A stretch of DNA of 28,600 bases from a virus, in IMG/VR virus record IMGVR_UViG_3300037247_001033, positions 1-28,600 of that record. One strand, written 5' to 3'. Position 1 is the stretch's first letter. Each line of letters opens with the position of its first letter. Below are positions 13,682 to 19,094 of this stretch, piece after piece. The translations under genes and the position numbers were made by a program. The notes beneath the pieces are model-generated. The model saw only the letters and a program-made list of their open reading frames with translations. It did no database searches and was not told the origin of the DNA.

Positions 13682-13870
13682 CTACTCTACCTCCACGGGT
13701 TCTGGTCTCTCCACTACCGAGCACTTGTCGCAATGCGCCTCCACTGCATCAAGCTCCGAGGCGAAGTGCGTATGAATCAGCCCGCCGCAATCGCAAGACG
13801 TTGGGGGGTAGACGCAAGCCTCGCACTCACTGTCGCCCTCGGTATGGAACATTCTCCACTCATTCATCAC
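13682..13870 (-). CDS. Cys-rich small protein, probably leaderless
   Basis: A 62-residue acidic protein with CEAC, CDC and CDKC pairs plus His residues (about positions 16-50), resembling a zinc-binding knuckle. It begins at GTG 13870 or the adjacent ATG 13867; no SD is present. A TTGCAC-17-TACACT promoter ends six bases before the GTG, which fits a leaderless mRNA. Upstream lies copy 1 of the repeated structured RNA. It heads the operon that includes both zinc-peptidase-like genes. Confidence 0.65.
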   Translation of the reverse strand: MMNEWRMFHTEGDSECEACVYPPTSCDCGGLIHTHFASELDAVEAHCDKCSVVERPEPVEVE

Positions 13871-13876
13871 ACTCTT

Positions 13877-13905
13877 AGTGTACCAAAATGGGGGTAAGAG
13901 TGCAA
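13877..13905 (-). promoter_or_regulatory. Promoter for the 13.9-11.4 kb operon
   Basis: The minus-strand -35 box is TTGCAC (13900-13905) and the -10 box is TACACT (13877-13882), with a 17-bp spacer. The predicted start falls on or beside the GTG at 13870. Confidence 0.65.
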
Positions 13906-14047
13906 GGGGGGTGTAGCGCTTACGCTACACCCCTCGGAAGGACAAAGGGCCAGCTACCCTTGCGGGAGAGCCTTATGGGGCTCTTATCACTGGCCATACA
14001 TCCATGCAAACCCCGGGTTCCGTGCTGGCCTCCAGCCAACACCTACA
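13905..14047 (-). ncRNA. Structured RNA candidate, copy 1 of a two-copy motif
   Basis: Read on the minus strand, an outer stem GGCCAG/CTGGCC (13990-13995 with 13948-13953) encloses the shared core AGTGATAAGAGCC (13979-13991). It also encloses a hairpin AGAGCC/GGCTCT and a CCC-GCAA-GGG hairpin with a GNRA loop (13957-13966), making a three-way junction. Before it stands a GCTGG/CCAGC hairpin, and after it an 11-bp hairpin. A -10 element lies at the 5' end. The core recurs at 18990-19002 on the other strand. No known riboswitch class was recognised. Confidence 0.6.
13908..13933 (-). terminator. Perfect 11-bp GC-rich hairpin ending RNA copy 1
   Basis: GGGGTGTAGCG and CGCTACACCCC are perfect complements with a four-base loop. 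The hairpin lies just after the structured RNA motif and just before the next promoter. No U-run follows on the minus strand, so it may be a tail-less terminator or the last helix of the RNA. Confidence 0.55.
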
Positions 14048-14052
14048 TTCTT

Positions 14053-14061
14053 ATTATACCA
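14053..14061 (-). promoter_or_regulatory. Extended -10 promoter for RNA copy 1
   Basis: TGGTATAAT on the minus strand is an extended -10 (TGn plus a perfect TATAAT). It overlaps the stop codon of the gene ending at 14054. No good -35 is present. The predicted start is near 14046. Confidence 0.55.
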
Positions 14062-17176: not shown

Positions 17177-17185
17177 AGTATAGCA
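17177..17185 (-). promoter_or_regulatory. Extended -10 promoter, TGCTATACT
   Basis: The 13-mer TTGTGCTATACTA on the minus strand (17176-17188) contains an extended -10. The same 13-mer recurs at 18252-18264 upstream of another small gene. No convincing -35 is seen. Confidence 0.55.
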
Positions 17186-17252
17186 CAACGCCTCGGCTGA
17201 TCTCGCTGGCCCATACGAGCCATCCGACCGAGGCGTGCACTCTGGATACTCT

Positions 17253-17327
17253 TGGTAACGGGAGGGGGATTCGAACCCCCGACCTTCAGGTTATGAGCCT
17301 GACGAGCTGCCGCTGCTCCACCCCGTA
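17253..17327 (-). tRNA. tRNA-Met(CAU), initiator-like
   Basis: A complete cloverleaf with encoded CCA: acceptor TACGGGG/TCCCGTT with discriminator A, D arm GAGC/GCTC with a short seven-base loop, anticodon arm TCAGG-CTCATAA-CCTGA (anticodon CAU), and T arm GGGGG-TTCGAAT-CCCCC. Initiator features are an unpaired 1:72 position (U:U), an A11:U24 pair in the D stem, and close resemblance to bacterial tRNA-fMet in the D and anticodon arms. The third hallmark, GGG:CCC in the anticodon stem, is changed to AGG:CCU. A TTGACA/TATACT promoter stands just upstream. Confidence 0.9.
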
Positions 17328-17379: not shown

Positions 17380-17868
17380 ATGGATCATGACACCCCCTCC
17401 CCCATCATCCCCAACCTCCTGTGGCAGTCAGGAGAGATGAGAGACCACCCCGAAAGGATTGAGGAGAACAAGATTGATGTCATCCTCAACCTCTCCTACT
17501 ACCCAGACCCAGAGAAAATCCAACGTTCCGTCTCTGAGTACCTCCAGTGGGGGTTCGACGACGGGCGCCTCCCAGACCTCGAGCAGCTCTGGCGCACCGT
17601 CAACTGGGTCTGCGGCGCCCTGAGAGCCGGCCGTCGCGTGCTGGTACACTGCGATGCGGGCCTAAACCGAAGCGGCCTCGTCTGCGCTCTGGTCGTCCGA
17701 GTGCTCCGAGGGCTAGGGGGCGCCTACGCAGTTGAGCTCGTACGCATCTGTAGGGGCAAATGGGCACTCTGCAACGAAACGTTCGTCACCTACATCAAGA
17801 GCGCGGACGCCACCGAGGCGGCGAACGCCTCGCTCAAGAGCCAAAACCAGCCATATTCAACCTCTTAG
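17380..17868 (+). CDS. Dual-specificity / tyrosine phosphatase-like protein
   Basis: A 162-residue protein with the Cys-based phosphatase P-loop VHCDAGLNRSG (Cys91, Arg97; HCxxGxxRSG). A candidate general acid Asp60 or Asp61 in GFDDGRLPD lies about 30 residues earlier, as in DSP/PTP folds. The N-terminus (IPNLLWQSGEM, IDVILNLSYYPD) matches the opening strands of these phosphatases. The last ~25 residues are a polar tail. It is the only plus-strand gene among minus-strand ones and seems leaderless. It may remove phosphate from host proteins, RNA 5' ends or lipids; the sequence does not tell which. Confidence 0.85.
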   Translation: MDHDTPSPIIPNLLWQSGEMRDHPERIEENKIDVILNLSYYPDPEKIQRSVSEYLQWGFDDGRLPDLEQLWRTVNWVCGALRAGRRVLVHCDAGLNRSGLVCALVVRVLRGLGGAYAVELVRICRGKWALCNETFVTYIKSADATEAANASLKSQNQPYSTS

Positions 17869-18803: not shown

Positions 18804-18813
18804 TAAACCCCCT

Positions 18814-18908
18814 GTACCCTACAACCCATTGTACCCTACACGCCTTTATCGCCCCTAACCTACGTAAACCTATAGTACCCTACAACCCATTGTGGCCTAC
18901 AACCCATT
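18814..18908. repeat. Iteron-like 17-bp direct repeats
   Basis: GTACCCTACAACCCATT occurs exactly at 18814-18830 and 18875-18891. Each is followed head-to-tail by a variant: a 10-base match from 18831, and GTGGCCTACAACCCATT at 18892-18908. The two pairs are offset by 61 bp. An inverted half-site GTTGTAGG lies at 18667-18674. Confidence 0.75.
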
Positions 18909-18981
18909 ATGAGGTGCAATAAACCGAAGATTGCCGCGTTAGGGCCTTCAGAACGCCACATCCCGGCCGATACTAGGGTCA

Positions 18982-19045
18982 GAGGAGCGAGTGATAAGAG
19001 CCGCAAGGATGAATAGGCCGCCCGAAAGGGGAATTGCCGCTCCTC
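18982..19045 (+). ncRNA. Structured RNA candidate, copy 2, upstream of a Cys-rich gene
   Basis: A perfect 8-bp outer stem GAGGAGCG/CGCTCCTC (18982-18989 with 19038-19045) encloses the core AGTGATAAGAGCC (18990-19002), a CC-GCAA-GG mini-hairpin and a CCC-GAAA-GGG hairpin (19021-19030). The core is identical to that of copy 1, and both copies have a C3-GNRA-G3 hairpin, but the outer stems differ in sequence while staying perfectly paired. It is placed 50 nt before an SD-masking hairpin. Confidence 0.6.
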
Positions 19046-19094
19046 CCACCTTTACCAACAAAATAGACGGAACGAGAGGGATGGCGGGCGGGCG

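Follow-up and report, generated by a model that had tools for sequence, protein, structure and literature searches.

The three-way-junction RNA on the minus strand of this phage DNA (copy 1; Table 1) is very probably a phage-borne member of a class of DUF3800-associated small RNAs that Rfam does not list. The window analyzed here is the whole 28,600-nt stretch of the IMG/VR record. An initial annotation, made from the letters of the window, had described copy 1 as three stems around a conserved core, and both the sequence and the predicted fold agree with that description: the computed fold of copy 1 with its flanks is exactly the described junction (-27.9 kcal/mol, z -3.1). Members of the class are RNAs of roughly 67 nt, with one copy per genome. 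Most have a 5' AAAGG box and a 3' GGTC box, both of which copy 1 lacks. The nearest relative of copy 1 is a Chloroflexota RNA (L038/L072) that adjoins a DUF3800 gene and is identical to it at 43 of 50 positions (86%).

Table 1. Features of the window, numbered from its first letter
Feature	Position	Strand	Details and basis
Three-way-junction RNA core, copy 1	13948..13995	-	Fold; covariance model match over 13937-14005, taken as the extent of the RNA
Copy 1 P1	13995-13989/13954-13948	-	GGCCAGU/GCUGGCC, 7 pairs, closing pair U-G
Copy 1 J1/2	13988-13985	-	GAUA
Copy 1 P2	13984-13979/13972-13967	-	AGAGCC/GGCUCU
Copy 1 P3	13966-13964/13959-13957	-	CCC-GCAA-GGG, GCAA loop
Copy 1 J3/1	13956-13955	-	UA
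Candidate -10 box of the copy 1 transcript	14053..14058	-	TATAAT; sequence match
Predicted hairpin upstream of the junction, same presumed transcript	14022..14042	-	Fold of 13900-14047
Predicted strong hairpin downstream of the junction	13908..13933	-	Sequence and fold
Cys-rich ORF, 62 aa, downstream of copy 1	13682..13870	-	Homologues in related phages
tRNA-Met (CAT) gene	17253-17327	-	
Dual-specificity phosphatase-like gene (PF00782)	17380-17868		Homologue in related phage L119
Imperfect direct repeats of CCTACAACCCATT, possibly a control region	18806-18911		Upstream of copy 2, between divergent gene blocks
Copy 2	18975..19053	+	AGTGATAAGAGCC core, GGC, CCCGAAAGGG, enclosed by GGAGCG/CGCTCC; model support absent
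AAA ATPase, 418 aa	26671-27927		DUF5925 similarity

The 13-mer core of copy 1 recurs exactly at 18990-19002. By our estimate, about 24 exact 13-mer pairs are expected by chance in 28.6 kb, so the repeat by itself carries little weight, and the motif was therefore tested against sequences outside the window. A search pattern composed of the core, the P2 partner, and the GNRA hairpin matched two phage contigs (L003 and L005) and 17 bacterial loci with good, differing P1 stems; about half of the 34 genome matches had no P1 and were judged to be chance, and only P1-bearing matches were retained. The viral pattern GATAAGAGC...GCY gave six matches, all of which were judged to be chance. Neither Megablast of the window nor a distant search of phage records with the transcript produced a match, and a search of plasmids was likewise negative. 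The initial annotation had called for a covariance model of the two window sequences; ours (R1) was built from the 17 bacterial relatives and contained no window sequence. Run without filters on the window, R1 matched copy 1 with 49.8 bits (E 1.9e-14). Class members score mostly over 80 bits on the sense strand and under 19 bits on the reverse strand, and R1 found them in 11 of 301 sampled Chloroflexota genomes and 7 of 396 sampled Actinomycetota genomes.

Homologues with compensatory changes, which the initial annotation had set as one test of its proposal, were found at the 17 bacterial loci and later among 34 members, many of them detected by the model rather than by the pattern. In the alignment of the 17 bacterial sequences (A2), 7 of the 10 P1 pairs are changed on both sides; across the 34 members this holds for 13 of 19 pairs, P2 included, and 96.7% of cells are paired. 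The initial pattern held P2 fixed; its changes across the members include AGAACC/GGUUCU in L147, and in the related phage G535, GAGCU/AGCUC replaces GAGCC/GGCUC. The core is near-invariant from CPR bacteria through to phages, and J1/2 reads GAUA, GACA, or GAAA across the class. None of 500 shuffles had as high a covariation score, for a 34-member alignment fitted to the model structure and shuffles that ignore kinship, and sliding the pairing partners lowered the score from 0.46 to at most 0.14. The initial proposal, a functional structured RNA whose unpaired core is conserved and whose stems show compensation, is thus borne out. A bidirectional terminator, or a fold that arose by chance, could be imagined from the U-run that often ends the RNA and from its place between two convergent units. 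However, the conserved unpaired GAUA/GACA/GAAA and UA segments, the compensated stems, and the E value of 1.9e-14 make this reading hardly credible, and covariation refutes it as a full account.

The RNA lies tail to tail with a DUF3800 (PF12686) gene at 20 of the 38 loci of the class, a count that includes two broken gene remnants (L092 and L149). The DUF3800-adjoining loci represent at least seven phyla and Gordonia phage Kenna; the convergent gene is found at the RNA 3' end in CPR bacteria, Nitrospira, Delta- and Gammaproteobacteria, Elusimicrobia, Chloroflexota, Actinomycetota, and phage Kenna. At many bacterial loci, the stop codon of a 220- to 260-aa gene, identified as DUF3800 by Pfam and often Tyr rich at its end, meets the RNA 3' end. 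At the -10 position, members match TATAAT at 4.36 of 6 bases, compared to 2.85 of 6 in control windows, and the start of the -10-like hexamer lies mostly 11 to 13 bases ahead of AAAG in the members examined. Members often end in a U-run. Because the -10 position is fixed relative to AAAG, transcription probably begins at AAAG and stops past GGTC and the U-run; from the -10 position and the U-run we infer that the bacterial RNA is a separate small transcript of about 67 nt.

This arrangement bears on the suggestion that the motif acts as a riboswitch or leader controlling the Cys-rich gene downstream. In the window, the 62-aa ORF lies on the same strand as copy 1 and starts 78 nt past the junction, with TATAAT upstream of the RNA, and the ORFs downstream of both copies are Cys rich, as annotated. 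However, the class RNAs do not lead a same-strand gene, because each has a promoter position of its own and a convergent neighbor. The neighbors of lone copies are varied, and related phages without the motif have retained the Cys-rich gene. A search across the loci for the riboswitch arrangement, a 5' leader in conserved association with a same-strand gene, revealed convergent neighbors and mixed contexts instead. We consider a leader function very unlikely, and this implication of the initial annotation does not survive comparison with the relatives. In two of the related phages, the homologue of the 62-aa ORF has another large structured RNA immediately upstream. The sequence upstream of copy 1 itself gave no full sigma70 match that included a -35 box. 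The fold of 13900-14047 has an energy of -69.8 kcal/mol (z -3.3), and whether the hairpin downstream of the junction is a terminator is uncertain because no U-run follows it. No DUF3800 gene lies beside copy 1 in the window, which is a fragment of a phage genome.

The second copy proved different. As described, the 13-mer on the plus strand is followed by a C3-GNRA-G3 hairpin (CCC-GAAA-GGG) and enclosed by a different closing stem. Its P2 has only three good pairs around a 13-nt loop, and its J3/1 is GA, versus UA in copy 1. For copy 2, R1 gave 8.3 bits (E 3.2), which is below the score of an unrelated hairpin at 17180-17243; since such a value is noise, copy 2 was rejected as a second class member, and the motif cannot be called two-copy, as the model passes copy 1 alone. 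A relaxed, post hoc core descriptor does match copy 2 and gave 2 matches in 400 shuffled windows (0.005 per window), so it may at best be a decayed copy.

At the gathering level, no Rfam 15 family recognized any member tested, the window copies included. Scans of the window, both copies, and the relatives returned a tRNA, chance matches, and sub-threshold DUF3800-IX, together with true DUF3800-V and DUF3800-IX RNAs in positions neighboring some relatives. A naRNA4 match at 13905-13995 on the plus strand (19.8 bits, E 0.13) was taken as chance; twister-sister, hammerhead, and other ribozymes were considered because of CCGCAAGG, and Rfam gives them no support. The nearest family is DUF3800-IX (RF02968), reportedly first described by Weinberg et al. 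in 2017, which under permissive settings matched L028 with 20.7 bits and L033 with 21.1 bits against a gathering score of 36.8. The DUF3800-IX model did not match copy 1 at E 10, and when R1 was run on ten DUF3800-IX loci, only L079 was matched in the correct position (13.9 bits, E 0.04).

The two kinds of RNA share a three-way junction with a P1 of 10 to 11 pairs, a 4-nt J1/2 beginning with GA, P2, P3, and a UA J3/1; in both, many copies have 5' AAAG, a 3' GG(A)TC-U-run, and a sigma70-like promoter, and both lie tail to tail with a DUF3800 gene. They differ in the sequences of P2 and P3 and in the subclass of the cognate DUF3800 protein. True DUF3800-IX copies from Patescibacteria begin with AAAG like the class RNAs, share their UA junction and promoter, and often have the U-run too; several of them adjoin a DUF3800 gene of another subclass. 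At L147, a DUF3800 gene with a class RNA is followed in tandem and in the same orientation by a DUF3800 gene with a DUF3800-IX RNA; the latter match (53.4 bits) belongs to a separate RNA and does not overlie the motif. Because this tandem holds both RNAs and members score below the DUF3800-IX gathering cut-off, we regard the class as a sister of DUF3800-IX rather than a member of it, and thus a new class within a known kind, the DUF3800-associated candidate RNAs. The earlier statement that no described riboswitch has this core therefore holds at Rfam thresholds, but it overlooked the kinship to the DUF3800-associated RNAs, and to DUF3800-IX as the nearest. DUF3800-V (RF02964) is likewise DUF3800 linked and differs in its greater length and its fold; in Elusimicrobia (L033/L066), one such RNA (67.3 bits) precedes a class member on the same strand by about 30 nt. 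Two further loci, L153 (G035) and L154 (G081), carry DUF3800-IX RNAs as direct repeats around a DUF3800 gene, 776 and 838 bp apart.

Seven related Chloroflexota genomes give a view of how the locus changes. The RNA is 94 to 99% identical in most pairs and the flanks are 80 to 93% identical; DUF3800 follows the RNA in three genomes and is missing in four, and homology breaks just after the RNA, where the gene comes and goes. In two genomes, insertions of 1.76 kb and 1.31 kb, the first encoding an HSDR_N/RAMA protein and the second a similar-looking protein, end two bases before the RNA. HSDR_N/RAMA restriction-type genes and DUF3800 swap at the two RNA edges in this group (L093-L098 and L100), as at a defence-gene insertion hot spot. 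Such breaks, along with the direct repeats of DUF3800-IX RNAs in G035 and G081, would suit a small mobile cassette with a folded DNA (or RNA) as its recombination end or insertion hot spot, comparable to integron attC sites. Against this, the constant spacing of the -10 box, the U-run at the 3' end, the GNRA loop, and the U-G pairs favor a single RNA strand, and the reverse-strand scores are low; the sequence shows no attC R boxes. We regard the cassette reading as improbable. In five bacterial assemblies, perhaps incomplete, in which the RNA is alone or beside a broken gene, no intact DUF3800 match was found anywhere. These lone chromosomal copies are compatible with an antidote that outlasts a lost toxin, and also with an independent role or an insertion hot spot.

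Among phages, both arrangements occur. In Gordonia phages Kenna and Lutum, the RNA and DUF3800 (gp54 in Kenna) are flanked by an IrrE-like protease gene on one side and the immunity repressor on the other, in a slot that holds other cargo in phages Horus and BeeGee. The RNA is without an adjoining DUF3800 gene in the window, in the related phage G535, and in Mycobacterium phage Nebkiss, where it occupies 73162-73220 beside tRNA genes in a 617-bp stretch with no match in phage Gaia. Relatives of the 662-aa protein of the window mostly come without the RNA; G535 has it near the contig end, and DUF3800 was not found in 16 related phage records. The G535 junction is embedded in a larger structured stretch whose flanking modules are common to G533 and G542, both of which lack the junction. 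L133 (G535), L135 (G533), and L136 (G542), and no other phage contigs, share this larger structured RNA of some 330 nt, in which a variable middle separates the conserved modules CGACAGGGGCCTACGGGTTNCTGT and GGGCAACCCYAGGCTAACG; it has no Rfam match.

The phage RNA might accordingly be a free-standing regulator, or a domain of a larger phage RNA, whose present role is unrelated to DUF3800. The G535 structure, shared in part with the junction-less G533 and G542, is consistent with this, as are the extra hairpins in the fold of the window transcript and the lone chromosomal copies in assemblies without any DUF3800. However, with a core that hardly varies between CPR bacteria and phages, selection probably acts on the same surface here as in the DUF3800-adjoining copies, and copy 1 is nearest to a DUF3800-linked copy. 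On balance, an unrelated role appears rather unlikely.

The DUF3800 alignment has invariant D10, E11, E63, D64, and D192. An AlphaFold2 model of the protein is fair (mean pLDDT 83.5). Foldseek found no match below 0.001 for it in the PDB, and a sequence search found no DUF3800 among solved structures. Among the leading Foldseek matches, all weak, are short-Argonaute chains and a terminase nuclease, both of which we take to hold RNase H folds; among viral models, DUF3800 ranks first. PADLOC places DUF3800 among its candidate defence proteins. The protein is probably an RNase-H-fold nuclease, judging from the model and in agreement with published work that assigns DUF3800 an RNase H fold and links it with noncoding RNAs (PMC10910872).

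Starting from the RNA class, structure, gene arrangement, and lone phage copies documented above, we propose that RNA and DUF3800 work together as a single RNA-protein system: the RNA would bind its cognate DUF3800 protein and hold or direct the RNase-H-like nuclease. We find this partnership reasonably likely. Because phages keep the RNA without the gene, the lone phage RNAs would most likely act in trans on a putative DUF3800 protein of the host or of a competing prophage, as decoys or antidotes; we advance this part tentatively. Class membership, RNA-protein partnership, and phage decoy or antidote together make up our best explanation, to which as a whole we give slightly less than even confidence. 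That DUF3800 and its RNAs form an RNA-controlled nuclease defence system, with the lone phage RNAs as RNA-only counter-defence, is a more speculative extension and somewhat unlikely. To our knowledge, RNA-only phage counter-defence by decoy or antidote has so far been known for ToxIN and CRISPR alone.

Until now, DUF3800 RNAs have been known only as candidates, with no function assigned. Our results add a widespread RNA class absent from Rfam 15 and a case of an RNA class that tracks a protein subclass, and the lone phage copies raise the possibility that the RNA disarms a DUF3800 nuclease. Both forms exist in cultured phages with laboratory hosts, the RNA plus gene on G. terrae 3612 (Kenna and Lutum) and the RNA alone on M. 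smegmatis mc2 155 (Nebkiss), so that the function of these RNAs is now open to ordinary plaque and pull-down experiments.

HEARO/OMEGA RNAs are structured RNAs that adjoin one gene for a nuclease of RNase-H-like fold, an arrangement similar to that of the class; they are longer and have a guide region, and none was seen in the class RNA. ToxI also pairs a small structured RNA with a nuclease gene, and phage PhiTE carries RNA-only pseudo-ToxI mimics (PMC3475682), which the class resembles only in its proposed working. ToxI is a repeat array co-transcribed with its toxin, whereas the class RNA has its own promoter position, a different fold, and a different protein family; the tandem repeats upstream of and codirectional with the toxin that mark type III toxin-antitoxin systems were not found, the class RNA being a single, convergent copy. 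Racr RNAs, the RNA anti-CRISPRs of phages (PMC10651486), are likewise lone phage copies of an RNA that is otherwise part of a defence locus, but they involve CRISPR repeats and Cas proteins and have no sequence or protein kinship to the class. The analogies to pseudo-ToxI and Racr are therefore analogies of working, not of kinship.
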